Positions 35,929 through 52,518 of a DNA stretch of 64,000 bases are shown one piece after another (the stretch's first letter is position 1; every line of letters begins with the position of its first letter). The notes under the pieces were generated by a model. The model worked only from the letters and a program-made list of their open reading frames with translations. It ran no database searches and had not been told where the DNA came from. Made by a program: the position numbers and the translations under genes. Source of the DNA: Acidimicrobiales bacterium. Its GTDB lineage: Bacteria > Actinomycetota > Acidimicrobiia > Acidimicrobiales > Ilumatobacteraceae. The stretch is from contig JAURCL010000005.1 of assembly GCA_030828465.1 (NCBI GenBank), positions 1 through 64,000 of the forward strand. Direction: 5' to 3'.

Positions 35929-36759
35929 TCAGTCGGCCCCGGCCGGCGACCCGGAGGCCGGGCCGTCGCCGACGGCGAGGATGCCGTCATGCATCTCGTG
36001 AAGAGTGGCGAGGGAAGCGCCCTCCTCGAGCTCAAGGAAGTACTCGGAGCTCTCCGAGCACCAGTGCTCGAACTCGTCGCCCCACTCTTCTGAGCCGGAG
36101 TCCGCTCCACCGAGGGTGTAGCGCTCGTGGCACACGACCGAGAGGATCTCGTAGTCGGTCAACGCGCCTTCGAAGCCGGGCATCGCGCCGCGGGCCCCCG
36201 TGACATGCGGACCGCCGGGTCGATCCGGGTTGCCGTAGATCTCCACGCCGGCGACGTTGTATGCACCCGTGCCGTAGAGCACGTATCGGAGCTGGTCCTC
36301 GATGTTCGGGAAGGTGAGGAGCACCTCGCCCTCGGTGAAGGCGTAGCCGACGCCGCCTCCTCCGGCTCCGCCGTGGCAGGCCGCACAGTTCGCGTATATC
36401 TCGGCGCCCATGGCGAGTGGACCGCTGGCCTCCTCGGCCTGGGCGGTCACCGAGCGCACGTACATGAATGTCCAGATCGGAAGGAGCGCCAGCGCTGCCA
36501 TCGCCCAGAACGGCACCTTGCGTCGCGCGCGGTAGGCAGCGACGACCGGAGAGTCGGGCTTCGGTGGCGGGGGCTCCGACGGTGCGGCCGCCGCCGTTCT
36601 CGGCGCGGGGCCGGTGGAGGCAGGCGTCGTTGAGGCAGCCGCGGCGGGGGCGGTGTCCTTCGTGGTGGCCACCTCGGTTCCAGGGCTCTCCGAACTGCCG
36701 CCGGCCGCGGCGCGGCGGTCTCGGCTTCGCTTCAGCAAGTGTTCGGGAATCTCGGTCAC
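35929..36759 (-). CDS. Membrane-anchored mono-heme cytochrome c with IPEHLL N-terminal motif
   Basis: A 276-aa protein from GTG 36759, preceded by GAGAGG as ribosome binding site. The cytoplasmic N-terminus begins TEIPEHLLKRSRDRR and continues Ala/Pro-rich to about residue 80. One membrane helix (about 83-100) leads to an extracytoplasmic cytochrome c domain with CAACH (125-129) and a likely Met ligand in GAMPGFEG. It ends with an acidic tail. The IPEHLL start is nearly identical to that of the cytochrome b subunit IV protein encoded divergently at 38938, suggesting the two belong to one complex. It would carry electrons away from the quinol oxidase complex (inference). Confidence 0.88.
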   Translation of the reverse strand: MTEIPEHLLKRSRDRRAAAGGSSESPGTEVATTKDTAPAAAASTTPASTGPAPRTAAAAPSEPPPPKPDSPVVAAYRARRKVPFWAMAALALLPIWTFMYVRSVTAQAEEASGPLAMGAEIYANCAACHGGAGGGGVGYAFTEGEVLLTFPNIEDQLRYVLYGTGAYNVAGVEIYGNPDRPGGPHVTGARGAMPGFEGALTDYEILSVVCHERYTLGGADSGSEEWGDEFEHWCSESSEYFLELEEGASLATLHEMHDGILAVGDGPASGSPAGAD

Positions 36760-37215
36760 GCTGGTCCTCTCGAAGGGGTGTCGTCCGTGTCGGGTTCGAT
36801 CGTCTTGCGACTCGCTCATCGGACCGTTGTCGCGCCTCCACGATAGACGGCGCGACGGCGATCCGGCGAAACCCATGGGAGTCGTCGATCCCGAATTATC
36901 GACCGCTGTCGGAACAACGTCGGAGAGAACTTGCGCACAACCCCGCATGGGGTCGGGGGGCTGCTGGCAGACTGTTGGTCGACCGATCGCGAGGAGCGTT
37001 TCGGTCACCGACATAGAGATCGACAGCAAGACCGAGACGACCACCGGTCGTTGGTCCATCCGGGCTGAGTCGACCGCCGCCGACGCGGTGACGGAATGGC
37101 TCTAACGGGTGGTCCCCCGACTACAGTTGGACGGGAGTGCGGACGGCCCGGCTCGCCGGCAGCCCACCCCCGATCGATCACGAGCACGAGAGAACGAAAG
37201 GCAGCGCGACGAGTC
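36760..37215. promoter_or_regulatory. 456-base divergent intergenic region between cytochrome c and bc-complex genes
   Basis: No convincing gene lies here; open frames on both strands are extensions of the flanking genes or low-quality shadows. It must hold the promoters for the cytochrome c/reductase pair (minus) and for the respiratory array (plus). A GATAAT hexamer on the minus strand (about 36895-36900) and TACAGT on the plus strand (about 37122-37127) are possible -10 elements without good -35 partners. GGAAC at about 36920 resembles an ECF-type -35. A purine-rich GAGAGAACGAAAGG stretch at 37188-37201 precedes the plus-strand start. Confidence 0.4.
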
Positions 37216-37698
37216 ATGTTCGCCTTCAACTGGAACGTCCTGGAGTGGCCCGGGATGAACACCGCCTTCCTCGTCTCGTTCATCGCCTCGAATCTCCTCG
37301 CCTTCGCGGTCATCCCCTATGGCAAGCGCCGGCCGCTCGGCACGCCGATGTCGTGGGGTGAGGCGATGCTCGGCTCCACGTACGTGTTCGGCGTGATGTT
37401 CCTCGCTTTCGGGATCGTCCCGCATCAGTGGATCGACCACGCCGACAAGGACCTCGGGTGGGACCGCACCAAGATCATCTACGGGCCGGGCGGAATCCTG
37501 AAGCCCCAGGCCCTCGACGGCTGGTTCCCGTTCACCCTGCAGTACGAGGCGATCCGCGACATCGTGGTCGTCGTCATCCACGCGTATTACTTCGGACTCG
37601 TGATCTTCCTGTGGTCCTACTGGCAGAAGCGCGGCAAGGACATCAGCACCGAACTTGACACCAGCACGTATGGACGCCCACTGGTGAAGAAGGCCTGA
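37216..37698 (+). CDS. Small multi-pass membrane protein of the bc-complex operon
   Basis: A 160-aa protein with about three membrane helices (MNTAFLVSFIASNLLAFAVI, STYVFGVMFLAFGIV, VVVVIHAYYFGLVIFLWSYW). Conserved-looking His/Asp residues (VPHQWIDHADKD, VVIHAYYFG) lie at helix ends, which could be ligands or quinone-site residues (inference). ATG 37216 was chosen over an upstream frame because the hydrophobic protein begins there. The ferredoxin gene follows after 1 base, so it is the first gene of the respiratory array. I do not recognise the family. Confidence 0.75.
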   Translation: MFAFNWNVLEWPGMNTAFLVSFIASNLLAFAVIPYGKRRPLGTPMSWGEAMLGSTYVFGVMFLAFGIVPHQWIDHADKDLGWDRTKIIYGPGGILKPQALDGWFPFTLQYEAIRDIVVVVIHAYYFGLVIFLWSYWQKRGKDISTELDTSTYGRPLVKKA

Positions 37699-37699
37699 T

Positions 37700-38113
37700 A
37701 TGGCGAAGACCGACGCCAACCCCCCGATGATGCCGTTCACGGACGAGTACACGCTCGTTGAGGTGGACGCCGACTACTTGACCAGGGCGGTCAAGCCGAA
37801 GCAGTTCATCCATATCGATCAGACCGAGTGCATCATGTGCGAGGGCTGCGTCGACATCTGCCCGTGGAAGTGCATCCACATGGTGCAGCCCGAGGCGATC
37901 GTCGAGTCCGAGGGAACCGAGCGGCCCGGTGACGACCCCTCCGACAACGTGGTCTTCATCATCGACGACGACATCTGCACCCGTTGCGCCCTGTGCGTGG
38001 ACCGCTGCCCGACCGGGGTCATCATCCTCGGCAAGGTGGGCCCCGCCACCTCGGCGGGCGATTCGCATACTCGAACCAACAACCATGGCTATGCCTACGG
38101 CATGCGACTCTGA
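37700..38113 (+). CDS. Two-cluster [4Fe-4S] ferredoxin of the bc-complex operon
   Basis: A 137-aa ferredoxin-like protein. Cluster motif one is CIMCEGCVDICP (Cys 44, 47, 50, 54) and motif two is CTRCALCVDRCP (Cys 93, 96, 99, 103). A 38-residue linker separates them, longer than in small ferredoxins, and an extra Cys at 58 replaces the usual Pro-Ala context. It has no membrane helix or signal peptide, so it would act in the cytoplasm. Its position between a membrane protein and cytochrome b6 suggests it is a subunit or electron donor/acceptor of that complex, which is not standard for actinobacterial cytochrome bcc. Confidence 0.92.
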   Translation: MAKTDANPPMMPFTDEYTLVEVDADYLTRAVKPKQFIHIDQTECIMCEGCVDICPWKCIHMVQPEAIVESEGTERPGDDPSDNVVFIIDDDICTRCALCVDRCPTGVIILGKVGPATSAGDSHTRTNNHGYAYGMRL

Positions 38114-38136
38114 CACCATCCGGAACGAGAACTGAC

Positions 38137-38922
38137 ATGGCAAAGATCATCGACGAGACATCTCGCCCCACCGCCAAGGAGCGATTCCAGCAGACGGTCG
38201 ACTCCGTCCAGGGAAGCCAAGCTTGGGCGAGCATCTTCCGACCGGGCTCCATCTTCCGCAAGGGCTACACCGACAGCCCCAGGAACCGCAGCTACGTGGT
38301 TATGAACTCGGTTCTCTACCACCTGCACCCAGTGAAGGTGAAGCGTCATGCGGTCAAGGTGAGCTACACGCTCTGCCTCGGCGGGCTGAGCTTCTTCCTC
38401 TTCATCTTGCTCACGGTGACGGGCATCTTCCTGATGTTCTTCTACCGGCCCGAGGCGACCGCCGCGTGGGACGACATCTCCAACCTGCAGACCTCGGTCA
38501 CCTTCGGACTGCTGGTGAGAAACATGCATCGATGGGGTGCGCACCTCATGGTGCTCGCGGTCTTCCTGCACATGTCGCGCGTCTTCTACCACGGGGCCTA
38601 CAAACCGCCTCGCGAGTTCAACTGGGTGATCGGCGTGATCCTGCTCACGCTCACCCTGCTGCTGTCGTTCACCGGCTACCTGCTGCCGTGGGACCAGCTG
38701 GCACTCTGGGCGGTCGCGGTCGGCACCAACATGATGGGGTACACCCCGGTGTTCGGCCAGGAGGTCAGATTCGTTCTGCTCGGTGGAGCCGAGATCGGAT
38801 CGGAGACCCTGCTCCGTTGGTATGTGCTCCACGTGCTCTTCTTCCCGTTCATCATCGTCATCTTCATGGCGATCCACTTCTGGCGCGTCCGCAAGGACGG
38901 CGGCATCAGCGGACCGCTGTGA
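38137..38922 (+). CDS. Cytochrome b6-type subunit of a quinol:cytochrome c oxidoreductase
   Basis: A 261-aa four-helix cytochrome b. Heme-ligand His pairs are H131/H232 and H145/H247, with the same spacings as b6 of chloroplasts (14 within helix B, 15 within helix D, 101 and 102 between). Cys80 in YTLCLGG lies 51 residues before the first His, exactly as Cys35 before His86 in b6. In b6f that Cys holds the covalent heme c_i. YKPPREFNWV and GYLLPWDQ are core motifs. The N-terminal 70 residues are hydrophilic. The split from subunit IV contrasts with the fused QcrB of typical actinobacteria. Confidence 0.95.
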   Translation: MAKIIDETSRPTAKERFQQTVDSVQGSQAWASIFRPGSIFRKGYTDSPRNRSYVVMNSVLYHLHPVKVKRHAVKVSYTLCLGGLSFFLFILLTVTGIFLMFFYRPEATAAWDDISNLQTSVTFGLLVRNMHRWGAHLMVLAVFLHMSRVFYHGAYKPPREFNWVIGVILLTLTLLLSFTGYLLPWDQLALWAVAVGTNMMGYTPVFGQEVRFVLLGGAEIGSETLLRWYVLHVLFFPFIIVIFMAIHFWRVRKDGGISGPL

Positions 38923-38937
38923 TCGGAGGCTGACCGA

Positions 38938-39711
38938 ATGACCGAGATCCCCGAACACCTCTTGAAGCGAGCCCAGGCGGCTCGAGAGAAGGCTGCCGAG
39001 TCCTCAGCGGAACCGGCGGGTGAGACGGCTGCCCCCGCGGCTGAGGCCGACTCCCGTATCCCCGCCCACCTCCTCGAGCGCTCCAAGGCCGCCCGCACGA
39101 AGGCGGCCGGTGGCGATGACGACGCGGGGGGCGGCGTCGCCGTCGCCGACAAGGTCGCGGCAGCTGTGGCCACCCCTGCAGCCGGCGGCGGCGTGCCGGT
39201 CGGCGCGGGTCCCGGAGGTCACACTCAGCGCCTGCTCACCGTGGTCAAGTCGGGTTCGATCCAAGAGGTCAAGGCTCAGCCCGTCGACAAGGTCCACACC
39301 TGGCCGCACCTGCTCGCCGCAGAGTTCGTGGCTTCCCTCGCCTGCCTGGTGTTCACGTTCCTCTTCTCGATCTGGGTGAACGCGCCGCTGCTCCAGTTGG
39401 CGAACAACAACCAGACGCCGAACCCCTCGAAGGCCCCGTGGTACTTCCTCGGTCTGCAGGAGTTGCTGACGATGTTCCACCCGATGGTCGCCGGTGTGAC
39501 CATTCCTGGTGTTGGCATCATCATGTTGATCTTCGCCCCGTACATCGACAAGAACCCGTCGAACAAGCCTGAGGATCGCAAGTTCGCGACCTCGCTCATG
39601 ACCGTGCACCTCATGTTCTGGGCGGTGCTCGTGATGATCGGCTCGTTCTTCCGGGGCCCCGGATTCAACTTCACGCTGCCGTGGCGTGACGGACTGTTCT
39701 TCGAGCTCTGA
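38938..39711 (+). CDS. Cytochrome b subunit IV-type protein with duplicated IPEHLL extension
   Basis: A 257-aa protein. The C-terminal 130 residues are the three-helix C-terminal part of cytochrome b, with the quinol-site motif NPSKAPWYFLGLQELL (KAPWY in place of PEWY). The N-terminal 120 residues are a hydrophilic, Ala-rich extension with two copies of an IPxHLLxR motif: TEIPEHLLKRAQAAR (2-16) and SRIPAHLLERSKAAR (about 40-54). The same motif starts the divergent cytochrome c. GGAGG lies upstream of the ATG. It pairs with the b6 subunit just upstream. Confidence 0.93.
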   Translation: MTEIPEHLLKRAQAAREKAAESSAEPAGETAAPAAEADSRIPAHLLERSKAARTKAAGGDDDAGGGVAVADKVAAAVATPAAGGGVPVGAGPGGHTQRLLTVVKSGSIQEVKAQPVDKVHTWPHLLAAEFVASLACLVFTFLFSIWVNAPLLQLANNNQTPNPSKAPWYFLGLQELLTMFHPMVAGVTIPGVGIIMLIFAPYIDKNPSNKPEDRKFATSLMTVHLMFWAVLVMIGSFFRGPGFNFTLPWRDGLFFEL

Positions 39712-39730
39712 GGTCGAGGAGGGAACCACA

Positions 39731-40597
39731 TTGAGCGCAACCTCAGTCATCATCATCGCGGTGGTCGCCGTCGTCGTCCTCGGCGGCGCGGCCTTCGCCT
39801 CGCTCGCGCGTCGCTCCGATGTGCGGGGCGCCGGAGCCCTGAGCGACGAGACCGTCGCCCGTGACCGAGCCGCTCGCAAGGCTCGCCAGACGGCCGAGAG
39901 CGGGCCGACCGCTGCCTCGGTTGAGGCCGAGGGAGTCGCCGCTCGCGCTGGCACCTCCGTCGCGGTCGCCGAGGATCGCGCTCCGGTCCCGTTCGTGCCC
40001 GCCGACCCGGAGGCCATTGGGGTAAGCCGTCGGCAGTTCTTCAACCGCGCGACGATCTCCCTCATGTCAGCCGGTATCGGTGCCTTCGCGGCGGCCTCGT
40101 TCGTCGCGTTTCTCTGGCCGACGAAGACCGGTGGATTCGGTGGCAAGGTGTCGATCGGCCGCTACGACGACGTGGTGAGCGGCATCCGGTCGGGTCGCGG
40201 GTTCTTCTACGCCCCCGAAGCCCGCGCGTGGATCACCGAATACCCGGTCGATGTGGTGCCGAAGGCCGAGGGGATCTACAAGGAATCCCTCATGCCTGGG
40301 CTGCAGCGCGGCCTGATCGCGTCGTACCAGAAGTGCCCGCACCTCGGCTGCCGCGTTCCAGAGTGCTCCTCCAGCCAGTGGTTCGAGTGCGGCTGTCATG
40401 GATCGATGTACAACCGAGTCGGCGAGAAGAAGGGCGGACCCGCTCCTCGAGGTCTCGACCACTTCCCCCTCGAGTTCTCGGCGTCGGGTGAGGTGTTCGT
40501 CGACACCGGCACCATCGTTCAGGGTGTCCCGATCGGTGTGAACACCACCGGTCAGGAGGCCGAGGGACCGCATTGCGTGGGAGCGAGTGATCACTGA
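39731..40597 (+). CDS. Rieske [2Fe-2S] protein of the b6-type complex
   Basis: A 288-aa Rieske protein from a TTG at 39731, supported by GAGGAGGG nine bases upstream. An N-terminal membrane helix (about 4-24) and a charged linker precede a twin-arginine motif (SRRQFFNRA, 99-107) with a second helix (about 108-130). Cluster ligands are in CPHLGC (202-207) and CGCHGS (220-225). Tat-dependent export of the folded cluster domain is expected. It accepts an electron from quinol at the outer site and passes it to cytochrome c. The next gene starts on the last base of its stop. Confidence 0.94.
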   Translation: MSATSVIIIAVVAVVVLGGAAFASLARRSDVRGAGALSDETVARDRAARKARQTAESGPTAASVEAEGVAARAGTSVAVAEDRAPVPFVPADPEAIGVSRRQFFNRATISLMSAGIGAFAAASFVAFLWPTKTGGFGGKVSIGRYDDVVSGIRSGRGFFYAPEARAWITEYPVDVVPKAEGIYKESLMPGLQRGLIASYQKCPHLGCRVPECSSSQWFECGCHGSMYNRVGEKKGGPAPRGLDHFPLEFSASGEVFVDTGTIVQGVPIGVNTTGQEAEGPHCVGASDH

Positions 40598-41658
40598 TGC
40601 TGGCCCTGACCACCACCAACATCGCCTGGCTCCTGCTGCTCGTCATCTCGACGGGCTTTATCGTCTACGCGGTTCTCAACATCCGCCAGTCGAGGGCCGA
40701 ACTCGGCTCGGAGATCGAACTCGCTCCGAACCGCAAGGAGTACTACGACGACGAGACGCTGGAAGGAAGCCGACTTGAGCGCGTCCAGTTGCTCGGGGTG
40801 CTCCTCCTCGTGGTGGTCGTGATCGGTCTCCCCGTGTACTGGGTGCTCGAGCCCGGGCGTCAGGCCGGAGCAGTCGAGGCCAAGGAGGAGATCTTCACCG
40901 AGTGGGGTCGTCGCCTGTTCGCGCCGACCGCCGAGGGCGGGTTCAACTGCGCCGGCTGTCACGGCGGGTACGCCGGTGGCGGTGGCGAAGCGGCCTGGAA
41001 CATCACCGACGCGAAGACCGGTGAGGTCGAAGCCGTCAACTGGAAGGCTCCGGCACTCGACACGATCTTCTACCGATTCGACGAGGACGAGGTCCGCTTC
41101 ATCCTCGTCTACGGCCGCCCGTTCTCGCCGATGAGCCCCTGGGGTCTCGAGGGTGGCGGTCCGATGAACGATCAGCAGATCGACACCCTCATCACGTACC
41201 TCTGGTCGATCCAGGTCGAGCGGGAAGACTGCGGTGTCGGTGAGGATGACGCGCGGAGTTGCCCGTCGGGACACCTGCCGTCCGATATGCAGGACGACAT
41301 TGAGACCCGTGCCCGCCAACTCGTCGCCGATGGCACCTACACCTCATACGGCGAGGCGCTCTTCAACCTTGACCTCGGTAGCGGCGCATACAGCTGCGCT
41401 CGGTGCCACACGCCCGGTTGGAGCTGGGGCGATCCGGGAGTGACCGGTCAGGGCGGTTTCGGGTGGAACCTCACCGGCGGCAAGGCGAACACGGTCTTCC
41501 CGAATGAGGACGACATGATCGACTTCATCAGGAACGGCTCGGTCTACGGCGCCAAGTACGGCGTGCAGGGCCAAGGGAGCGGCCGGATGCCCGGTTTCGG
41601 AGCCATGCTCACCGACGAGCAACTCACCGCCGTCGTCGAATACGTGCGGGGTCTGTGA
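40597..41658 (+). CDS. Membrane-anchored di-heme cytochrome c
   Basis: A 353-aa protein. Two N-terminal membrane helices (about 6-28 and 64-84) precede two cytochrome c domains with CAGCH (118-122) and CARCH (267-271). Likely axial Met residues lie in PMSPWG and GRMPGFG. It takes the place of QcrC in the actinobacterial bcc complex but has two N-terminal helices and a different domain arrangement. Overlap of 1 base with the Rieske stop and TGATG with the next gene show tight coupling. It is the likely electron outlet of the complex. Confidence 0.92.
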   Translation: MLALTTTNIAWLLLLVISTGFIVYAVLNIRQSRAELGSEIELAPNRKEYYDDETLEGSRLERVQLLGVLLLVVVVIGLPVYWVLEPGRQAGAVEAKEEIFTEWGRRLFAPTAEGGFNCAGCHGGYAGGGGEAAWNITDAKTGEVEAVNWKAPALDTIFYRFDEDEVRFILVYGRPFSPMSPWGLEGGGPMNDQQIDTLITYLWSIQVEREDCGVGEDDARSCPSGHLPSDMQDDIETRARQLVADGTYTSYGEALFNLDLGSGAYSCARCHTPGWSWGDPGVTGQGGFGWNLTGGKANTVFPNEDDMIDFIRNGSVYGAKYGVQGQGSGRMPGFGAMLTDEQLTAVVEYVRGL

Positions 41659-42485
41659 TGCTCTCAATACTGCTCGCGGTCAACTGGGAACCGGAACTGC
41701 GCGGTCTCCTCACCGTCGTCCTCGGCCTCGTCGCCTTCATGGGCTCGGTGTATCTCATCCTCGGCACCAACCTCGGCGCCCGACTCGGCTTCCTCGTCGC
41801 GCTCACCGGGCTCGCCGGGTGGATGGCGCTCATGGGGGCCATCTGGTGGATCTACGGCATCGGGCTGAAGGGGGAGGATCCCTCTTGGCAGCAGGTGCCC
41901 GGACGCACCGTCATCCAAGATCCCGATGGACTCTTTCAGGCAGGTGTTTTCGAGCAACGGCTCGCCGTCTCCGCGGACGCGCCGCTCGACGTTCTGGCTG
42001 ACGGCATCGTCGACCAGTTCGTCGAAGAGGGCTGGACCGTCGTGGCCGATACCGACCCGGCCTTTGGTCAGGCGGAGTCGTCGGCGACCGTCTTCCTCGA
42101 GGAAGAGGGGGCCTTCGCGCCGGGTGAGTTCGATGTCACCCACGTCTATGAGATCGGTGGCGAGGCCTATCCGAAGATCCTCGGACTCGACGCGCTGGAT
42201 CAGATCGCTTTCTTCCACCGGCCGTACTACACGGTGGTCGAAGTGGCGCCTTACATACCGCTCAGAGACGAGCCCGGCCGCGCTCCGACAGCACCCGAGA
42301 TCGATACGAGTCGTGAGCGTCAGTACGTCTACATGATCCGCGACCTCGGATCTCGCCGCGAGCCCGCGGCGCTCATCACCATCGGTTCGACGATCGTGTT
42401 CCTCGCGCTCTGCTGGATGCTCCATCGACGGGATCGGTTCGTGGCCGAGAATCTGGAACGGAAGGCGATCGCCACGTCGGCGTGA
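41658..42485 (+). CDS. Membrane protein of unknown function between bc and nuo genes
   Basis: A 275-aa protein with two helices at the N-terminus (about 14-36 and 42-64) and one near the C-terminus (ALITIGSTIVFLALCWML). A 170-residue acidic soluble domain between them lacks metal-binding motifs. It starts at ATG in the TGATG junction with the di-heme cytochrome gene and overlaps nuoA by GTGA, so it physically joins the two respiratory operons. I do not recognise the family; an assembly or supercomplex linker role is only inference. Confidence 0.75.
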   Translation: MLSILLAVNWEPELRGLLTVVLGLVAFMGSVYLILGTNLGARLGFLVALTGLAGWMALMGAIWWIYGIGLKGEDPSWQQVPGRTVIQDPDGLFQAGVFEQRLAVSADAPLDVLADGIVDQFVEEGWTVVADTDPAFGQAESSATVFLEEEGAFAPGEFDVTHVYEIGGEAYPKILGLDALDQIAFFHRPYYTVVEVAPYIPLRDEPGRAPTAPEIDTSRERQYVYMIRDLGSRREPAALITIGSTIVFLALCWMLHRRDRFVAENLERKAIATSA

Positions 42486-42979
42486 CCTCGACGATGTCCC
42501 AGTACCTCCCCATTGTCGTACTGCTCATCCTGGCGACGCTCTTCGGAGCGTTGAGTTTCGTGGCATCCCGACTGCTCGCGCCGCGCCGGCCCTCGGTTGC
42601 CAAGGAGGCCCCATACGAGTGTGGGATCGTGCCGAGCCGCGAGCCGCCTGAGCGCTTCCCGGTGAGCTTCTACATCGTCGCGATGCTCTTCATCATGTTC
42701 GACATCGAGATCATCTTCCTCTACCCCTATGCGGTGGAGCGCGGCGCCCTCGGCGCCTTCGGCTTCTGGGCGATCCTCGGCTTCTCGCTCGTGTTCTTCC
42801 TCACCTTCGTCTACGAGGTGGCGAGGGGAGGACTCGACTGGGGGCCTCTCCAGCGCTACCGAGACCTCACGGTCGACGCCGCGATGGTGTCGGCGGGACG
42901 CGACTCCTCGTCGACGATCCGTCGGGTCGGCCTCGAGGGACGCACCCCGTCCGATGATGGATCGGAGGCGGCCGCCTAG
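42482..42979 (+). CDS. nuoA: NADH-quinone oxidoreductase subunit A
   Basis: A 165-aa three-helix membrane subunit of complex I. The family signature [11 protein letters not shown] is present, and so is [23 protein letters not shown], including the acidic residues near the quinone channel. A 40-residue hydrophilic C-terminal tail is longer than usual. Start is GTG 42482 overlapping the previous stop, with ATG 42494 possible. First gene of a complete nuoA-N set. Confidence 0.94.
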
Positions 42980-42992
42980 TCGGCCGATCGTC

Positions 42993-43574
42993 ATGGGAGC
43001 GGTGGGAGACGTCCTTTCCGATGGGCTCGGTGGGCTGTCGCACAACGTGATCACCGGCCGCATCGAGGACCTGGTGAAGTGGGCGCGCTCCCGCTCCTCG
43101 TGGCCAGCGTCGTTTGGTCTGGCCTGCTGCGCGATCGAGATGATGGCGACCGGCGCGGCGCACTACGACATCTCCCGTTTCGGCATGGAGGTGTTCCGCG
43201 CCTCCCCGCGTCAGGCCGACATCATGATCGTCGCGGGCCGGGTGAGCCAGAAGATGGCGCCGGTGCTCCGTCAGGTATACGACCAGATGATGGAACCGAA
43301 GTGGGTCATCTCTATGGGTGTGTGTGCCTCGAGCGGAGGCATGTTCAACAACTACGCCATCGTGCAGGGGGTCGATCAGATCGTGCCGGTGGACGTGTAC
43401 GCCCCCGGATGCCCGCCCACCCCCGAGACGCTGATCCACGCGATCGAGACCCTCCACGGGCTCATCGAGAGCGGCGAGATCATGCGTCGACGCGAGGTGA
43501 CCGGCGCCGGGGCCGATGTCCACGTCCAGGAGATCCCCGCAACCTCCGTTCCCGTACTCCTCGGTAGCAGCTGA
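42993..43574 (+). CDS. nuoB: NADH-quinone oxidoreductase subunit B
   Basis: A 193-aa peripheral-arm subunit carrying cluster N2, the last iron-sulfur centre before quinone. Cluster Cys are in [17 protein letters not shown] and APGCPPTPE. The [15 protein letters not shown] motif is intact. ATG 42993 was chosen; an in-frame ATG at 42953 would add 13 Arg-rich residues. It follows nuoA by 13 bases. Confidence 0.95.
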
Positions 43575-43575
43575 C

Positions 43576-44094
43576 GTGAGTTCTGACGTGACGACCGACG
43601 GCACCGAAATGCCCGTGGACGAGGACGCCGTCCTCCACGGGTGCCCGCTCGTGGAATCGCGCGGGCAGCAGGTGCTGTTCGTCGCGCGGGATCGCTACCT
43701 CGAGGTGCTGCGTCTGCTCACCGATGAGGGCTTCGCGATGTGCGTCGATCTCACCGCCGTCGACTACTCGAGATTTATGGACCGCGACCTCCCCGAAGCC
43801 ATCGACGCTGAGCGGTTCGAGGTCGTCGTCAATCTGCTCGACATCTCGGCGCGGCGTCGGATGCGCGTCCGAGTCCAGGTTCCCGAGTCCGAGCCGGTCG
43901 TGCCGAGCCTCTTCGATCTTCATCCGGGCACCGAGGCGATGGAGCGCGAGGTGTTCGACATGTTCGGGATCGCGTTCAGCGACCATCCCGACCCGTCGCG
44001 CATCCTGATGCCCGAGGACTGGATCGGGCATCCGCTGCGCAAGGACTACGAGACCGGCTCGATCCCCGTTCAGTTCAAGGGAGCGCCGTCGTGA
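43576..44094 (+). CDS. nuoC: NADH-quinone oxidoreductase subunit C
   Basis: A 172-aa peripheral subunit from GTG 43576, one base after the nuoB stop. The conserved segment TEAMEREVFDMFGIAFSDHP and the end motif HPLRKDYE are the NuoC/30-kDa signature. It bridges NuoD and NuoI in the hydrophilic arm. It is separate from NuoD, unlike the fused NuoCD of enterobacteria. Overlaps nuoD by GTGA. Confidence 0.94.
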   Translation: MSSDVTTDGTEMPVDEDAVLHGCPLVESRGQQVLFVARDRYLEVLRLLTDEGFAMCVDLTAVDYSRFMDRDLPEAIDAERFEVVVNLLDISARRRMRVRVQVPESEPVVPSLFDLHPGTEAMEREVFDMFGIAFSDHPDPSRILMPEDWIGHPLRKDYETGSIPVQFKGAPS

Positions 44095-45410
44095 CCATGA
44101 TCGCCAACGAGGGCGCGCAGGAGATGCGTCCCCGGTCCGAGCTGAGCGCTCGCGAGCTCTTCCGCGAGGTCGGCTCCGTGCTCCGCATGAGCGAGGCGGA
44201 AGCCGCCGCGCTCGGCGACCTCCCCGAGGATCCCGAGGACGACCAGACGATGGTCATCAACATGGGCCCCCAGCACCCGTCGACCCACGGAGTGCTCCGA
44301 CTCATGCTCGAACTCCAGGGTGAGACCGTTCTCCGGTGCAAGCCGATCATCGGGTATCTGCACACCGGTATGGAGAAGACCGCCGAGCAACTGACCTTCA
44401 TGCAGGGCGGCACCAACGTGACGCGGATGGACTACCTCAGTCCGCTCAACAACGAACTCGTCTTCTCGCTCGCCACCGAGAAGCTCCTCGGTATCGACGG
44501 CGACATCCCCGAGCGGGCTGTCTGGATGCGGATGCTCCTCTCGGAACTCAACCGGATGAGTTCGCACCTTCTCTTCATGGCGACCAACGGCATGGACCTC
44601 GGTGCCGTCTCGATGATGATCTACGGCTGGCGCGAGCGCGAGGAGGTGCTTCGGTTCTTCCAGAAGGTCACCGGCCTCCGCATGAACCACAACTTCATCC
44701 GACCCGGTGGACTTGCTGCTGATCTTCCGGCGGGATGGCGCGACGATGTCCTCCGCCTCCTCGACATGCTTCCCGCGCGCCTCGAGGAGTACGACATCTT
44801 GATGACGGGTCAGCCCATCTGGCGTGAACGACTCCAGGGTGTCGGGGTTATCACGCCGACCGAGGCGCTAGCGCTCGGCGCGACCGGTCCGATTCTGCGC
44901 TCCACCGGCGTCGAATGGGACCTGCGACGCGATATGCCCTATCTGCGCTACGACGAGGTCGACTTCGACGTGGTCGTCGGCACCTACGGCGACGCCTTCG
45001 ACCGCTACGCGATCCGACTCAACGAGATCCGCGAATCCATGCGCATCGTTCGCCAGATCCTCGACCGTATGCCCTCGGGTGACTACCGCATTCAGGACAA
45101 GAAGGTCACGCCTCCTCCGCGGGCTCGCATCGACGAGTCGATGGAGGCCCTCATCCACCACTTCAAGATCTTCACGGAGGGCTTCAGAGTCCCCGAGGGC
45201 GAGGTGTACGTGGGTATCGAGAGCCCGCGAGGTGAGATCGGCTGTTACATCGCGAGCGACGGCTCACCCACGCCGTATCGAATGCACATGCGCGCGCCCT
45301 CTTTCGTGAACATCCAGTGCCTGCCGCACATGATGCGAGGCGGTCTCGTGGCTGACGCCGTCGCGGTGATCTCCAGCGTCGATCCTGTGCTCGGGGAGGT
45401 CGACCGATGA
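44091..45410 (+). CDS. nuoD: NADH-quinone oxidoreductase subunit D
   Basis: A 439-aa 49-kDa-type subunit forming the quinone pocket with NuoB. NMGPQHPSTHGVLR opens the core at about residue 57; the quinone-site GYLHTGMEK loop and the C-terminal SVDPVLGEVDR are conserved. The first 45 residues are a charged extension not found in all homologues. GTG 44091 overlaps nuoC; ATG 44097 is possible. Confidence 0.95.
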   Translation: MTMIANEGAQEMRPRSELSARELFREVGSVLRMSEAEAAALGDLPEDPEDDQTMVINMGPQHPSTHGVLRLMLELQGETVLRCKPIIGYLHTGMEKTAEQLTFMQGGTNVTRMDYLSPLNNELVFSLATEKLLGIDGDIPERAVWMRMLLSELNRMSSHLLFMATNGMDLGAVSMMIYGWREREEVLRFFQKVTGLRMNHNFIRPGGLAADLPAGWRDDVLRLLDMLPARLEEYDILMTGQPIWRERLQGVGVITPTEALALGATGPILRSTGVEWDLRRDMPYLRYDEVDFDVVVGTYGDAFDRYAIRLNEIRESMRIVRQILDRMPSGDYRIQDKKVTPPPRARIDESMEALIHHFKIFTEGFRVPEGEVYVGIESPRGEIGCYIASDGSPTPYRMHMRAPSFVNIQCLPHMMRGGLVADAVAVISSVDPVLGEVDR

Positions 45411-46027
45411 GTCGTTTCAACGCGGAAAACCTCTCCCTCGCCCGCGAGATCATCGGCCGTTACCCGCGGCCGAAGTCGGCGCTGATCCCGCTCCTCCACC
45501 TAGCTCAGGAGCAGGAGGGCTGGATCTCCGAGGAGGCCATGCGCGAGATCGCCGAACTCGTCGGCGTAACGCCGGCCGAGGTGCGCGGCACCGGCACCTT
45601 CTACGAGATGTTCCACTTCGAGCCGATCGGGCGCTACCTCCTCAATATCTGCGGCACGATGTCGTGCGCGTTGATGGGAGCGGGCGATCTGCTCCACGCC
45701 GCCGAGGAGGAACTCGGCGTCCGCGCCGGCGGCACGACCCCCGACGGGCTCATCACCTTGCATCGGGCGGAGTGTCAGGCGGCCTGCACCGAGGCGCCAT
45801 GTCTGCAGGTCAACTACCGCTATCGCTTCCGCGTCACCCCCGACGGGGTGCGTGAGCTGATCAGCGAACTCCGAGCAGGTTCGCTCGCCGATGAGATCCC
45901 GCCGCACGGCACCTTGGCGACCGTCCGGCAGCACATCCCGGCCGATCGCGCCGTCGGTGCTGTCGATCCCGACGAGGACACCTCGCCTCCGAGTTGGGTG
46001 CCGGTGAGCGTTGAGGGGGCGCGATGA
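45407..46027 (+). CDS. nuoE: NADH-quinone oxidoreductase subunit E
   Basis: A 206-aa thioredoxin-fold [2Fe-2S] subunit of the NADH module. Cluster ligands are the Cx4C of NICGTMSCALMG and the Cx3C of AECQAACTEAPC. The N-terminal helical domain includes LLHLAQEQEGWISEEAM. About 50 acidic/Pro-rich residues follow the usual end of the domain. ATGA overlap with nuoD and with nuoF. Confidence 0.95.
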   Translation: MSRFNAENLSLAREIIGRYPRPKSALIPLLHLAQEQEGWISEEAMREIAELVGVTPAEVRGTGTFYEMFHFEPIGRYLLNICGTMSCALMGAGDLLHAAEEELGVRAGGTTPDGLITLHRAECQAACTEAPCLQVNYRYRFRVTPDGVRELISELRAGSLADEIPPHGTLATVRQHIPADRAVGAVDPDEDTSPPSWVPVSVEGAR

Positions 46028-47436
46028 CCGCCGAGACCTATCCCTGGGCACCCGGTTTCGTTGCCGGTGACCGGCCGAGGATCGTCACCTCCCGGTTCGG
46101 CCACGAGGATTCCCACACCCTCGAGCGCTATCTGGCGACCGGAGGGTACGAGGGGCTGCGCGCCGCGCTCTCCAAGTCGCCGAGCGAGGTGCACGATCAG
46201 GTACGCGGCTCCACGCTCCTCGGCCGCGGCGGTGCTGGTTTCCCCGCCGGCGTCAAGTGGGGTCTCACCCCTGAAGGAGTCTTCCCGCGCTATCTCGTCG
46301 TGAACGGTGACGAGTCCGAGCCAGGCACCTACAAGGACCGCCTGCTCATGGAGCGCGACCCGCACCAGTTGATCGAGGGCTGCCTCATCGCCTGCTACGC
46401 GGCCGGCCTCTCGCGATGCTTCCTCTACATCCGTGGGGAGATGGCCCTCGCCCAGGAGCGCGTCGCCTCCGCGCTCAACGAGGCGTACGCCGCCGGATAC
46501 ATCGGCCGCGACATCCTTGGCTCGGGATTCGGTGTCGACATCGTCCTGCATTGGGGTGCGGGCGCCTACGTCGTCGGCGAGGAGACCGCCCTCATCGAGT
46601 CACTCGAGGGCAACCGCGGCATGCCACGCCTCAAGCCGCCGTTTTTCCCCGCGGCCATCGGGCTCTACGGCAAGCCGACGATCGTCAACAATGTCGAGAC
46701 CCTCTCCAATCTGCCGTTCATCGCCGCTAACGGCGCGGAGGCCTACACCGCGATCGGCACCGAGACCTCCCCGGGTACGCGAATGGTCGCGGTCTCGGGC
46801 CACGTTCGTCGCCCCGGCGTCTACGAGATCGTCAACGGCACCACCACCTTCCGAGACCTCCTCTACGGCGAGGAGTTCTGCGGTGGCATCAGAGATGGCA
46901 ACGACCTGAAGGCTTTTGTGCCGGGCGGCGGCTCCGCCCCGTGGTTCCTGCCCGACCAACTCGATCTCCCCTTCGAGGGGCGCCAGGTGGGCGCTGCCGG
47001 TTCGATGCTCGGGTCGGGCGCGATCATGGTGATGGACTCGACGACGGATATCCCTGCCGCGGCGCTCACGCTCACCCGCTTCTACGCGCACGAGTCGTGT
47101 GGGAAGTGCGTTCCCTGTCGCGAGGGTGGCACCTGGTTGATGCGAGTCCTCGAGCGGGTCGTCGCGGGCGAGGGAACCACCGACGACCTCGACCTCCTTC
47201 TCGAGGTCGGCCAGTCGATCTGTCCGGGTGACATGCCCCACGCCTCGAGTGAGGCGCTCGGTCTCGACGCCACGCCGTTCCCCTACAAGATGACGACGAT
47301 CTGCTTCGTCGGACCGTCGGCCTATGTGCCGGTCCACTCAGCGCTAACGCTCTTCCGATCCGAGTTCGAATCGCGCGTCGCTCCGTCGCGCGCGCGCACG
47401 CGCATACCGGTCGTCGCCGCAGGGGGTGGACAGTGA
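46024..47436 (+). CDS. nuoF: NADH-quinone oxidoreductase subunit F (NADH- and FMN-binding)
   Basis: A 470-aa flavoprotein that takes hydride from NADH. The NADH/FMN motif GRGGAGFPAGVKW and the FMN-loop GAGAYVVGEETALIESLEG are intact. Cluster N3 ligands are in ESCGKCVPCREGG and in SICPGDM. Length is normal with a short basic tail. It lies between nuoE and nuoG with 4-base overlaps at both ends. Confidence 0.96.
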   Translation: MTAETYPWAPGFVAGDRPRIVTSRFGHEDSHTLERYLATGGYEGLRAALSKSPSEVHDQVRGSTLLGRGGAGFPAGVKWGLTPEGVFPRYLVVNGDESEPGTYKDRLLMERDPHQLIEGCLIACYAAGLSRCFLYIRGEMALAQERVASALNEAYAAGYIGRDILGSGFGVDIVLHWGAGAYVVGEETALIESLEGNRGMPRLKPPFFPAAIGLYGKPTIVNNVETLSNLPFIAANGAEAYTAIGTETSPGTRMVAVSGHVRRPGVYEIVNGTTTFRDLLYGEEFCGGIRDGNDLKAFVPGGGSAPWFLPDQLDLPFEGRQVGAAGSMLGSGAIMVMDSTTDIPAAALTLTRFYAHESCGKCVPCREGGTWLMRVLERVVAGEGTTDDLDLLLEVGQSICPGDMPHASSEALGLDATPFPYKMTTICFVGPSAYVPVHSALTLFRSEFESRVAPSRARTRIPVVAAGGGQ

Positions 47437-49781
47437 GCACCACCGAGGAGACCGGCGCCGAGCCGGAGGAAGCGATCGTCGAGCCCGATCCTGACGCGGT
47501 CGCCATCACGATCAACGGTCGAAGCGTGACCGCCCGTCGCGGTGACCTGGTGATCGCGGCAGCTGAGCGCGCCGGCGACTACATCCCTCGCTTCTGCTAC
47601 CACCCGCGCATGTCTTCGGTCGGTATGTGCCGGCAGTGCCTCGTCGAGATCGACACCGGTCGCGGCCCGATGCTCCAGCCCTCGTGCATGGTCACCGTCA
47701 CCGAGGGGATGGTCGTCGACACCGAGTCCGAGACCAGCAAGCGCGCTCAGGAGGGGATCCTCGAGCTGCTGCTCGCCAACCATCCTCTCGATTGCCCGGT
47801 TTGCGACAAGGGCGGTGAGTGCCCCCTTCAGGATCAGGCGTTCAGCCACGGTCCGGGTGAGAGCCGGTACGTCGAGGAGAAGCGCCACTACGAGAAGCCG
47901 ATCCCCATCAGCGATCTCGTCTTCCTCGATCGCGAGCGCTGCATTCTCTGCGACCGGTGCACCCGGTTCGCCGATGAGGTGGCTGGCGATGCGCTGATCC
48001 ACTTCGTCGATCGCGGCAACGCCACCCAGGTCAACACCTTCCCCGATGAGCCGTTCTCCTCGTACTTCTCAGGTAACACGGTGCAGATCTGCCCGGTGGG
48101 TGCCCTGACCGCCAAGCCCTACCGCTTCAAGGCGCGCCCCTGGGACCTCGAGCAGGTCGACAGCACCTGCACGTCGTGCTCGGTCGGATGCCGGATCTCG
48201 GTGCACTCAAGCCGCGACCGGATCCTGCGCTTCCAGGGCGTCGACGACGACGCGGTCAACTGGGGGTGGCTCTGCGATCGCGGTCGCTTCAACTTCGAGT
48301 CGGTGCACTCCGACCGGCGACTCGCCGATCCGCTCATCCGCACGGCCGAGGGACTGGCGACCACGGACTGGTCGTCGGCGCTCTCCCTGACCGCGCAACT
48401 CGTGCGCTCCGCGCTCGCCGACGGTGGTCCTGAGTCGATCGCGATCCTCGGTGGAGCCCGCGGCACGAACGAGGACGCGCTCGCCTGGTCGATGCTCGCC
48501 GACGCCCTCGGGGTCGAGCGCCGCGACGCGCGCCTCGGTGATGGCGTCGGTCTCGATCTGCTTGATCTGCCACGGGCCACGATCGCCGAGGCGGCCGCGG
48601 CCTCGACGATCGTGCTTCTCGCTCCGGATCTGAAGGAGGAGCTGCCCGTCCTTCACCTGCGCCTGCGTGATGCGGTGCTCCGTTCAGGGGCGAAGATCAT
48701 CGAGTTCACCCAGACCGGCTCGGGTCTCACCCGTCACGCGTGGCGAAGCATCCGCCACCTCCCGGGTGTCGGAGCGCAGACGGTCGCCGAGGCGCTTGCT
48801 GAGGAGGCGGTCGCCGCCCAACTCGCCTCGGGGCCGGTGGTCGTCGTGGCCGGACGGGCCAACCTCGCCGAGAGCGCCGCGGCACTGTCTGAGCGCGTCG
48901 CCGCCGTGCTGAGCGCAGCTCCCGACGCCCGTGTGCTGTCGGTGATGCGCCGTGGTAACACCGCTGGCGCCCTCGCCGCCGGGCTCAGCGGATCGGCCGG
49001 GGCCGCGCAGATCCTCCGCGATGCCGCTGATGGTCGTATCGACCTCCTCGTCCTCCTCGGATCCGATCCGCTCGCGGACTTCCCCGACTCCAGGCTCGCA
49101 CGGACGGCGCTGGCCCGGGTGGGTCGCATCGTGTCACTCGATGGGCATCTCTCCGCCTCGAGCGAGCAGGCCGACATTGTCCTCCCGGTCGCGGTCATGG
49201 GGGAGAAGTCGGGAACGACGACGAACCTCGAGGGACGGGTCACCCCGGTCGCTCAGAAGGTAACCGTGCACGGGACCGCGAGACCTGATTGGATGATCGC
49301 GCTCGATCTGGCTGATCGACTCGACGTCGAACTCGAGGTCTCGGACCTCGGCGACCTCACCTCGATGATCGAGTTGTCGGACGACGGTCGATGGACACGG
49401 CCCTTCGGCGCCACGGCGCCGACCTTCGAGTCGGTAGTCGGAACCAACTACGACTTCCGACTGGTGCTCTCCCGGCGGCTCTATGACGCCGCGGTCTCGA
49501 CGGCCGCCTCGCCCTCACTCGCCTCGCTCCCCGGTGGGCGCGGCTTGTCGGTGCACCCCTCCGATCTCGAGCGCATCGGAGTCTCCTCGGGCGATGACGT
49601 GAAGGTGATCGGCTCCCGCGGCTCGGTCGTGCTCCCGGTGTGCGTCGATGATCGAGTCAACCGCGGCACGGTCTGGGCGCCGTTCAACCAGCCGGCGGGT
49701 GAGCGATCCGAGGGCGACGTTCGCGACGTGGTCGATGTCGATGCTTCGGTCACCGATGTCAGGATCGAGCGGCTCTCATGA
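47433..49781 (+). CDS. nuoG: NADH-quinone oxidoreductase subunit G
   Basis: A 782-aa iron-sulfur subunit. The N-terminal [2Fe-2S] domain has CYHPRMSSVGMCRQC. The His/Cys [4Fe-4S] site is CPVCDKGGECPLQD, a further cluster lies at CILCDRCTRFADE, and an N7-like site at CTSCSVGC. The remaining 500 residues form a molybdopterin-oxidoreductase-like domain that does not hold a cofactor in complex I. GTG start overlaps nuoF by GTGA. Confidence 0.95.
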   Translation: MSTTEETGAEPEEAIVEPDPDAVAITINGRSVTARRGDLVIAAAERAGDYIPRFCYHPRMSSVGMCRQCLVEIDTGRGPMLQPSCMVTVTEGMVVDTESETSKRAQEGILELLLANHPLDCPVCDKGGECPLQDQAFSHGPGESRYVEEKRHYEKPIPISDLVFLDRERCILCDRCTRFADEVAGDALIHFVDRGNATQVNTFPDEPFSSYFSGNTVQICPVGALTAKPYRFKARPWDLEQVDSTCTSCSVGCRISVHSSRDRILRFQGVDDDAVNWGWLCDRGRFNFESVHSDRRLADPLIRTAEGLATTDWSSALSLTAQLVRSALADGGPESIAILGGARGTNEDALAWSMLADALGVERRDARLGDGVGLDLLDLPRATIAEAAAASTIVLLAPDLKEELPVLHLRLRDAVLRSGAKIIEFTQTGSGLTRHAWRSIRHLPGVGAQTVAEALAEEAVAAQLASGPVVVVAGRANLAESAAALSERVAAVLSAAPDARVLSVMRRGNTAGALAAGLSGSAGAAQILRDAADGRIDLLVLLGSDPLADFPDSRLARTALARVGRIVSLDGHLSASSEQADIVLPVAVMGEKSGTTTNLEGRVTPVAQKVTVHGTARPDWMIALDLADRLDVELEVSDLGDLTSMIELSDDGRWTRPFGATAPTFESVVGTNYDFRLVLSRRLYDAAVSTAASPSLASLPGGRGLSVHPSDLERIGVSSGDDVKVIGSRGSVVLPVCVDDRVNRGTVWAPFNQPAGERSEGDVRDVVDVDASVTDVRIERLS

Positions 49782-51019
49782 CCGCGATGCTTCCGATCCC
49801 CGCCGTCGATCCCGTGCTCGACACCGAGTCGTGGTGGTGGGAACCGCTCGCGATCGTCGGCCTGAAGGTCCTCGTGGTGTTCGTGATCGGGCTCGTCGGC
49901 ACCATGTTCATGGTCTGGTTCGAGCGCAAGATCGTCGCGGGTATGCAGAACCGGATCGGTCCCGACAAGGCGGGTCCGTTCGGACTGCTGCAGACCCTCG
50001 CCGATGGAATCAAGTTGTTCTTCAAGGAGGACTTGATCCCTGAGCGCTCCGACCGGTTCGTGTTCAAGCTCGCCCCGTTCCTCGCCTTTGTCCCCGCCTT
50101 CTTGATCTGGTCGGTGATCCCGCTCGGTGGAGACTTCTCCGATGGCCGTGATGGAACCGTCGAGTGGTTCGGTCAGATCACTCGCGTGCAGTTGGCCGAT
50201 CCCCCGGTCGGTGTGCTCCTCGTGCTCGCCCTCTCGTCGATCGCTGTCTACGGCGTGATGCTCGCCGGCTGGTCGAGCGGTTCGAAATACCCGCTCCTCG
50301 GCTCGGTGCGCGCCTCGGCTCAGATGATCTCCTACGAGGCCGCGCTCGGGCTCAGTCTCGCGACGGTGTTGATGGCGGCTGGCACGCTCTCCACCTCCGG
50401 GATCGTCGTGGCTCAGGATCGCCTGACCGACTGGCATCTGCTCTCCACCGGCGTGGTGCCCTTCGTCGTGTTCCTCATCGCGATGACCGCTGAGTTGAAC
50501 CGTCCACCATTCGACTTGGTGGAGGCCGAGCAGGAGATCGTCGGCGGCTTCCACACCGAGTACTCCTCGATCCGTTTCGCCCTGTTCTTCCTCGCTGAGT
50601 TCATGAACGTGATCTCGATGAGCGCGCTGTTGGTCACCCTGTTCCTCGGTGGTCCCCAGCCCCTCTTGATCGGATCCTTTGATCTCTTCGCGGTACTCGG
50701 CCCCTTCGGCGGAACCGCCTGGCTCCTGCTGAAGGTGTTCTTGTTCCTGTACGTCTATGTGTGGTTCCGCGCGACGCTGCCGCGACTCCGCTACGACCAG
50801 TTGATGGACCTCGGTTGGAAGGTCCTCATTCCGGTCGCTCTCGGATGGTTCCTGCTGCTCGCCGCGCTCCAACTTGGACGCGACAACGACCTCTCGCAGG
50901 TGAGCTACGTGGCTCTCGTGATCCTCTGTCTGATCGTGCTCGGACTCGGCTACCTGCTCTTCACCGCGGCGATCTCGGTCGCTCGGCGGAACCGTGATCG
51001 GGAAGGAGCGGCGTACTGA
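49778..51019 (+). CDS. nuoH: NADH-quinone oxidoreductase subunit H
   Basis: A 413-aa eight-helix membrane subunit at the quinone entry site. The [18 protein letters not shown] loop, [13 protein letters not shown] and the acidic loop [18 protein letters not shown] are the defining motifs. The sequence matches the family across the whole length. ATG overlaps the nuoG stop, and the stop overlaps nuoI by one base. Confidence 0.96.
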
Positions 51020-51690
51020 TGGGATACCTCGACGGATTCGCGGTCACCCTCCGTCAGCACCGCCTGTTCGGCGGCAAGCGGGTGACCACCTCCTACTCCG
51101 GTGGACGCGAGGCGCGACGGGCCGGTCGCGACGCTGATCCCTCGGCCGACGACGACATCAAGGTCGACAAACCCGAGCGTCTCCACGGGCGGCATGTGCT
51201 CAATCGCTATCCCGACGGGATGGAGAAGTGCATCGGCTGCGAGCTCTGCGCCGGTGTCTGCCCAGCCAAGTGCATCTATGTGCGCGGACAGGACAACGAC
51301 CCGGAGAACCCGACTTCTCCGGGTGAGCGATTCGGCTTCATCTACGAGATCAACTACCTCCGTTGCATCCACTGCGACCTCTGCGTCGAGGCCTGCCCGA
51401 CCGAGGCGATCACCGAGACGAAGCTGTTCGAGTTCTCCTTCACCAACCGGCGCGACGCGATCTACACCAAGGACGAACTCCTCGTCGACGACAGCGGCCG
51501 CCCGCAGCACATGCCCTGGGAGGACTGGCGTGATGGCGAGGACGAGCTCACCTCCGGCTGGATGCGAGCCACGTCGCCATCCGGTGACGCGAGCTTCGAG
51601 GGTGTGGAGGGCTGGAGCGGTGAGCTCGGTCACGGCGTCCGCGCGCCCGAACCCACTCAGGACGTCCGTGACGGGACGAGCGGGGAGTGA
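51019..51690 (+). CDS. nuoI: NADH-quinone oxidoreductase subunit I
   Basis: A 223-aa 2[4Fe-4S] subunit carrying clusters N6a and N6b. Motifs are [15 protein letters not shown] and [15 protein letters not shown]. The [17 protein letters not shown] segment before them is typical. The last 50 residues are an acidic, Gly/Ser-rich tail beyond the usual end. It follows nuoH in TGATG coupling. Confidence 0.95.
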
Positions 51691-52208
51691 TGGAGCTCAT
51701 CGTCTTCGTCCTGGCCTCGGCGATGGTGCTCTCGGGTGCCATCGGCGTCGTGCTGTTCAAGAACCCGGTTCACGCGGCGCTCGGCCTCGTGCTCACGCTG
51801 TTCGGCGTGGCGGTGCACTTCGTGTCGATGGAGGCGCATTTCTTGGCCGCGGTCCAGGTGATCGTCTACGCCGGCGCGATCGTGGTGCTCTTCCTCTTCG
51901 TGATCATGCTCCTCGGTGTCGACCGGGCTGAGGACCTGTCGATCGAGCCGCTCAAGTTGCAGCGCCCGGCGGCGATCGTGCTCGGCGCCGGAGTCACAGT
52001 GCTCGTGGCGGGCGCGGTCGTGCGCGGGGCCGACACCCTCGGCAGCGAGTCGAGCGCCGCGGCCCCCGGTGACTCGAACATCCGCGCGCTAGCCCGCAGC
52101 TTGTATAGCGACCATGTGCTCGCCTTCGAACTGACCTCGGTGCTCCTCATCGTCGCAGTGGCCGGCACGGTGGTGCTGACTCGCCGACTGAAGAAGTCGG
52201 AGGGCTGA
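51690..52208 (+). CDS. nuoJ: NADH-quinone oxidoreductase subunit J
   Basis: A 172-aa membrane subunit with about five helices. [19 protein letters not shown] and the pi-bulge helix [25 protein letters not shown] are the family signature. ATG 51690 in a TGATG junction with nuoI was chosen; GTG 51687 is equally possible. Normal length. Confidence 0.95.
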
Positions 52209-52210
52209 GG

Positions 52211-52516
52211 ATGGAACCGACCACCACCTCCTTCCTCGTGCTCGGCGCTCTGCTTTTCGGCATCGGCGCCACCGGCCTGATGATCCGCCGGAACCCACTC
52301 GTCATGTTCATGTGCATCGAGTTGATGCTCAACGCGGTGAACCTGACCTTCGTCGCGCTCGCCACCCGCTTCTCCGACATCGACGGTCAGACCGCGGTGT
52401 TCTTCGTGATGGTGGTCGCGGCGGCTGAGGTCGTTGTCGGCCTTGGCATCATCATCTCGATCATGCGGCGCCGCCCCGGGGCGACCGTCGACGATCTCGC
52501 GGAACTGAGGGGCTGA
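52211..52516 (+). CDS. nuoK: NADH-quinone oxidoreductase subunit K
   Basis: A 101-aa three-helix membrane subunit. The two conserved Glu of the proton path are in [14 protein letters not shown] and [13 protein letters not shown]. It starts 2 bases after the nuoJ stop, with GAGG just upstream. Typical length. Confidence 0.96.
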
Positions 52517-52518
52517 TC

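Follow-up and report, generated by a model that had tools for sequence, protein, structure and literature searches.

Complex III is usually viewed as a closed quinol-to-cytochrome c machine. The Rieske/b6 complexes of anammox bacteria have an NAD(P)/FAD/Fe-S subunit, and NAD(P)H formation via Q-cycle bifurcation has been proposed for Kustd1480-1485 and Kuste4569-4574 of Kuenenia (PMC12954380). In AF3 models of the Kuenenia complexes, the Fe-S clusters line up with haem c_N, and His62 or His43 of b6 binds a new interface haem; the distances from His62 to Arg266 and from His43 to Arg247 are both 204 (PMC12954380).

Composition of the complex III operon

We analysed a stretch of 64,000 nucleotides from a member of the Ilumatobacteraceae (the window), in which genes for a small membrane protein (MEM) and a ferredoxin (FDX) precede the gene for a b6-type cytochrome b. 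The nearest public match, L001, reached 99% over MEM, and the genome of the window gave a single cytochrome b match, namely b6. The genes are as follows.

35929..37059, - strand: monohaem cytochrome c, divergent and upstream, with its true start probably at about 36819; it neighbours the operon in the class
37216..37698, + strand: MEM, 160 aa with three transmembrane segments and no Pfam family; a SWGEAM loop and the cytoplasmic C-terminal YGRPLVKK are conserved
37700..38113, + strand: FDX, a 2[4Fe-4S] ferredoxin of 137 aa without a signal peptide; the N-terminal DEYxLVEVDADYL and C-terminal HGYAYGMR are conserved
38137..38922, + strand: b6-type cytochrome b, 261 aa, with haem ligands His131/145/232/247, Cys80 for haem c_i, and an N-terminal extension with the invariant FRPGSIFRKGYTDSPRNRSYV...HLHPVKVKRH, including His62
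38938..39711, + strand: subunit IV (petD-like); two IPxHLLxR motifs lie in its long N-terminal tail
39731..40597, + strand: Rieske protein with a TTG start; its cluster motif, CPHLGC...CGCHGSMY, has the high-potential Ser and Tyr
40597..41658, + strand: membrane-anchored dihaem cytochrome c with two CxxCH motifs
41658..42485, + strand: MEM2, a conserved membrane protein of unknown family and the final gene of the complex III operon

The open reading frames, hydropathy, AF2 and Pfam bore out the original prediction of a 160-aa three-helix protein and a 2[4Fe-4S] protein ahead of b6. The predicted gaps were exact by ORF coordinates, with one base between MEM and FDX (37699) and 23 bases between FDX and b6 (38114-38136). 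A promoter shared with b6 had also been claimed, and this was not shown: no sigma-70-like promoter was found across 36700-42600, and only spacing and strand favour a single operon. Downstream lies a complete 14-gene nuo cluster (42482-57514). A second nuo cluster starts at about 60386, where nuoA-D are followed directly by nuoH-N (nuoABCD-HIJKLMN) without nuoEFG; it extends past the window and continues in L239 to about 10990. The electron donor of this second complex I, which lacks the NADH module, could be ferredoxin or F420H2.

The b6 protein matched the Pfam family Cytochrome_B, and its residues 75-261 aligned with b6 of plants and cyanobacteria. Its histidines 131, 145, 232 and 247 aligned with those of 6rqf b6, as in a four-helix b6 with two histidine pairs at b6 spacing. 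Cys80 aligned to Cys35 of plant b6, the ligand of haem c_i, and this cysteine was kept in all FDX-type b6 listed. The separate subunit IV (PF00032) and Rieske protein (PF00355) make this a split complex. By the Ser/Tyr rule for high-potential Rieske clusters (PMC12954380), the Rieske proteins had the high-potential Ser in 121/121 sequences and the Tyr in 114/121. The alignment with plant b6 begins at residue 75, and the FRPGS...HLHPVK extension of the window protein is unmatched. Much of this extension was nearly invariant, and His62 was present in all FDX-type b6 (131/131). An equivalent of His62, within an HLHP motif, also occurred in three loci (L203, L208, L214) that have a fused cytochrome b and a Rieske protein and lack both the c_i cysteine and a nearby FDX.

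Chloroplast and cyanobacterial b6f complexes share with this operon the split into b6 and subunit IV, the cysteine ligand of haem c_i and the histidine pairs, but they have no ferredoxin subunit, no MEM, and cytochrome f in place of the dihaem cytochrome c. The actinobacterial bcc complex (QcrABC) belongs to the same phylum, has menaquinol:cytochrome c function and contains a dihaem cytochrome c. In contrast to the window, its cytochrome b is fused and 500-600 aa long, and FDX is missing; it is the alternative complex in members of the order that lack FDX, and FDX was absent from all 23 genomes of the order whose only cytochrome b is of the long QcrB type.

Kuste4569-4573 and Kustd1480-1485 (PMC12954380) resemble the window in their b6-type cytochrome b with subunit IV and their haem c_N, and probably also in their n-side Fe-S subunit. 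Sequence comparisons, in which L232-L236 served as proxies for the Kuenenia sequences, showed in addition that similar operons encode an FDX-related ferredoxin domain and that an interface-haem histidine lies at an equivalent place, as judged by spacing. In L232-L236, the first His of HLHPxK lies exactly 204 residues before the Arg of an RK pair, and the residue spacing suggests that His62 of the window b6 corresponds to the interface-haem histidine proposed for Kuenenia. The anammox complexes carry their Fe-S domain within an NAD(P)/FAD oxidoreductase and have a multihaem c-side, whereas the window encodes a free-standing FDX, the additional MEM and a dihaem cytochrome c. No gene for an NAD(P)/FAD oxidoreductase was found in 35929-42485.

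Distribution of FDX and related ferredoxin domains

FDX directly preceded b6 in 134 of the 137 readable loci from Acidimicrobiia and other actinomycetotal families. A single protein search yielded 80 loci with the same gene order, in which FDX stood directly before b6 wherever both genes were present (75/75); the counts were 36/38 for loci across the class and 23/23 for loci fetched from families elsewhere in the phylum. The recurring order was MEM-FDX-b6-IV-Rieske-cyt c-MEM2. Outside the class, a short hydrophobic gene with three transmembrane segments lay directly upstream of FDX, with a similar W..A...P..W...RD..KR pattern by eye. Hence, FDX is an old, phylum-level component of the complex III operon. 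The search for synteny that had been suggested for the 160-aa protein and the ferredoxin beside split cytochrome b was thus strongly positive across the phylum, and it supports the claim that a dedicated ferredoxin and a small membrane protein go with a split, haem-c_i-type cytochrome b.

We surveyed drawn samples of genomes, most of them metagenome-assembled. Among 247 Acidimicrobiia genomes, MEM was detected in 159 (within the reach of the profile) and FDX in 195; about 210 had a cytochrome b of the b6 type. Across the phylum, 113 of 396 genomes contained FDX, and it was retained in genomes of about 1 Mb (family f27). One genome, G243, had two complete copies of the MEM-FDX-b6 operon (L110, L111) that have diverged from each other.

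Three genomes (G114, G036 and G018) had lost FDX and retained MEM and b6; each has a second cytochrome b, compared with 50 of the 195 FDX-bearing genomes. Because MEM and b6 can persist after the loss of FDX, the core complex can do without it. In G036 (L113), four of the five changes at otherwise fixed b6 positions fell within N-terminal residues 43-50, a segment that by our own count contains 7 of the 143 fixed positions. G114 showed no such clustering, and G018 had one change there (Y44H). These substitutions hint that segment 43-50 of b6 may be the dock of FDX. Two kinds of apparent exception were discarded: a seeming FDX-b6 fusion in L106 proved to be a frameshift, and seeming losses of FDX in G096, G111, G131 and G139 were contig breaks inside a duplicated FDX gene.

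A record titled Phycisphaeraceae (L023) contained a 3.4-kb contig of actinobacterial type with the MEM-FDX-b6 operon. The genome carries a planctomycete label, and mis-binning of actinobacterial DNA is the likeliest explanation. We therefore treat this contig as a probable contaminant; apart from it, no stand-alone FDX was found with the FDX profile in 294 genomes of the phylum to which the record is assigned, and 20 of these genomes had a related domain inside a larger ORF. The fetched loci of the Planctomycetota type all had the order Rieske-b6-NAD(P)/FAD oxidoreductase (with an FDX-like C-terminal domain)-IV-octahaem cytochrome c (5/5), similar to the gene arrangement published for Kuenenia (PMC12954380). 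The FDX profile scored the fused domain of the anammox-like operons at 58-60 bits, and co-folds gave no confident docking prediction. Acidimicrobiia also have a second type of b6 operon, seen in seven loci (L206, L207, L209, L210, L211, L212, L213), in which b6 lacks the c_i cysteine and follows a GltD/NfnB-like NAD(P)/FAD oxidoreductase that ends in a dicluster domain. The premise that standard complexes have no dedicated ferredoxin subunit consequently needs a qualifier, as anammox complexes have an NAD(P)/FAD/Fe-S subunit (PMC12954380), whose C-terminal domain in similar operons is related to FDX.

Conservation and duplication of FDX

FDX is a dicluster ferredoxin with two CxxCxxCxxxCP motifs; it matched the Pfam dicluster models and most resembled NuoI and polyferredoxin modules. 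Typical identities in the close set, read from the table, were 85% for b6, about 80% for FDX, about 60% for MEM, 60% for the dihaem cytochrome c, about 54% for the Rieske protein and 48% for MEM2. FDX is almost as conserved as b6, its non-cluster ends included. In 149 sequences from across the phylum, the eight cluster cysteines were each at least 97% conserved, and so were, where present, the arm residues Y17, V22, R125, G130, Y131, Y133, G134 and R136. Purely diffusing ferredoxins seldom keep arms of this kind conserved.

The very strong conservation of the non-cluster ends, together with the tolerated loss of FDX in three lineages, would fit a role in structure, assembly or regulation, in which FDX stabilises or tunes the n-side, as PetP does at the cyanobacterial b6f, with its clusters off the catalytic path. 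We consider such a role unlikely, given the conservation of all eight cluster cysteines and the fact that the fused relatives of FDX are redox enzymes.

Two genomes from different families (G107 and G209) had a second, solo FDX gene at the same site between lgt and a mutM-like gene (L247, 4994-5404, - strand; L249, 4954-5364, + strand). The copies differed within these genomes at 0 and 1 of 411 bases, as against 60 between the genomes, and the similarity ended near the gene ends. This pattern implies that the duplication predates the split of the two lineages and that the copies have been kept alike, which is most simply explained by gene conversion, a process known for tuf genes. The contigs of G096, G111, G131, G139 and G203 terminate inside FDX, as a twin would predict; an identical twin breaks short-read assemblies at this gene. 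At least in the twin-bearing lineages, FDX thus seems to be needed in more than complex-bound amounts.

An identical solo gene elsewhere in several genomes also fits a partly soluble carrier, and FDX could be a soluble ferredoxin that is co-expressed with the respiratory operon without binding to the complex. This explanation is improbable in view of the invariant place that FDX occupies next to b6 and MEM throughout the phylum, and of its joint absence with b6.

Possible routes of electrons through FDX

MEM gave no family match against Pfam and NCBIfam. Its hydropathy profile contained three hydrophobic stretches, and AF2 predicted three confident helices (15-37, 46-78, 109-137) for a homologue. 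The original prediction described MEM as His-bearing, which holds for the window protein (H70, H75 and H122) and fails as a property of the family. H70 and H75 are invariant among close relatives; in other families, H70 is replaced by N or S, H75 is lost and H122 is replaced by Y. The three residues and their invariance in near relatives could suggest that MEM is a haem b protein that shuttles electrons between FDX and the quinone pool. However, none of them is retained as a conserved haem ligand across the class or phylum, and by the positive-inside rule all sit on the p-side. We rejected MEM as a haem protein, a role that we regard as very improbable. Being lineage-specific and located on the p-side, these histidines are not a low-potential path near c_i. 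The predicted ferredoxin-linked module at c_i is partly supported: the gene pair goes with a c_i-type b6, and the behaviour of the MEM histidines weakens the prediction.

FDX probably belongs to a b6/IV-type menaquinol:cytochrome c oxidoreductase, either as an n-side redox subunit or as a ferredoxin docked tightly to it, and links the Q cycle to the cytosol. FDX has a fixed place in the operon, co-occurs with b6, accompanies intact cluster, c_i and His62 motifs, and is kin to the anammox-type ferredoxin domain. From these observations we infer how it would dock, which haems it would meet and how electrons would be exchanged. FDX would lie on the cytoplasmic side near the b6 extension, as a 2[4Fe-4S] subunit or docked carrier, and MEM, as a membrane subunit, would provide its anchor or docking site, perhaps through the conserved cytoplasmic tail YGRPLVKK. 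FDX would swap electrons with b_N and c_i, possibly also with an interface haem b ligated by His62 from the two b6 chains, and a soluble low-potential carrier would thereby be coupled to the Q cycle. Co-folds of read-through fusions from homologous loci gave no confident contact, with a pTM of 0.28 for MEM-FDX-b6-IV and of 0.40 for FDX-b6. In 129 FDX-b6 pairs (effective number about 64), the covariation signal to p-side loops was equally strong, and the analysis was discarded.

Electrons could pass through FDX in either direction, and both directions fall within this redox-subunit reading, which we hold to be the probable one. If FDX acts only as an outlet, menaquinol would be bifurcated, with one electron going to the Rieske protein and cytochrome c and the other reaching a soluble acceptor by way of b_P, b_N and FDX; the NAD(P)H-forming complexes of anammox bacteria have been proposed to work in this manner. 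The related ferredoxin domain in the NAD(P)/FAD oxidoreductases of anammox-like operons and of the second operon type of the class points this way, as do the high-potential Ser and Tyr of the Rieske proteins, although these residues may merely reflect a high-potential oxidase. Moreover, FDX is retained in genomes without a POR-family source of reduced ferredoxin. Such a reaction would nevertheless be energetically demanding, uphill from menaquinol, and the Qn site appears intact with c_i retained. We regard an exclusive outlet as a real but tentative possibility.

If FDX acts only as an inlet, it would take electrons from soluble ferredoxin, reduced for instance by 2-oxoglutarate:ferredoxin oxidoreductase, and pass them via c_i into menaquinone at Qn, by analogy with chloroplast cyclic flow. 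The retained c_i cysteine and otherwise normal b6 are consistent with this route, a soluble form might be supplied by the solo FDX twin, and POR-family genes were found in 216 of the 247 class genomes, including that of the window. Yet at least 13 FDX-bearing genomes lacked these genes, whereas 16 of the 23 QcrB-only genomes had them. A link of FDX to 2-oxoacid:ferredoxin oxidoreductases was accordingly rejected, as their presence does not track FDX. Direct transfer from ferredoxin to quinone would also waste about 300 mV, and a complex I of 11 subunits, encoded on the same contig and lacking NuoEFG, could carry out this transfer with pumping. An exclusive inlet is therefore rather doubtful. 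The Rieske Ser and Tyr and the POR-less genomes make us lean weakly to the outlet, and we slightly prefer outward flow, in which bifurcated low-potential electrons exit via FDX, over inward flow from ferredoxin to menaquinone at the Qn site; c_i retention keeps inward flow possible.

This complex III, whose operon with MEM and FDX occurs in most members of one large class of environmental actinobacteria and in many from other classes of Actinomycetota, thus probably has an extra iron-sulfur subunit joined to cytosolic electron carriers. A more far-reaching proposal is that, in much of the phylum outside the bcc-bearing lineages, complex III bifurcates menaquinol and FDX passes the low-potential electrons to ferredoxin, giving aerobic heterotrophs a quinol-driven ferredoxin reductase with the gene-converted twin as soluble acceptor in some lineages; we put this forward as a long shot. 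A ferredoxin subunit fixed to complex III across a major phylum of soils, seas and fresh waters, streamlined genomes of about 1 Mb included, would mean that the low-potential branch of the Q cycle is open to cytosolic metabolism in ordinary aerobes, beyond anammox bacteria. The disputed exchange of ferredoxin or NAD(P) with n-side haems would become testable in culturable organisms. In the open-licence literature we found no description of an FDX/MEM complex III subunit, and a prior account elsewhere is possible.

The subunit IV tail contains the motif (T/R)(E/R)IP(E/A)HLL(K/E)R(A/S) twice, and a single copy lies close to the beginning of the divergent cytochrome c; the motif is kept in relatives. 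This common IPxHLLxR-type motif is possibly a shared docking or targeting tag.

The analysis also corrects gene annotation, as these genes are now listed as hypothetical protein, ferredoxin and ExtP. The ExtP model of selenite/tellurite reduction (NF040969) scored the window b6 at 308 bits, above its cut-off of 290. In contrast, subunit IV reached only 44.7 against the cut-off of 150 for ExtQ (NF040970), and the neighbouring genes are those of complex III and complex I. Automatic annotation may thus mislabel a respiratory b6 as ExtP.
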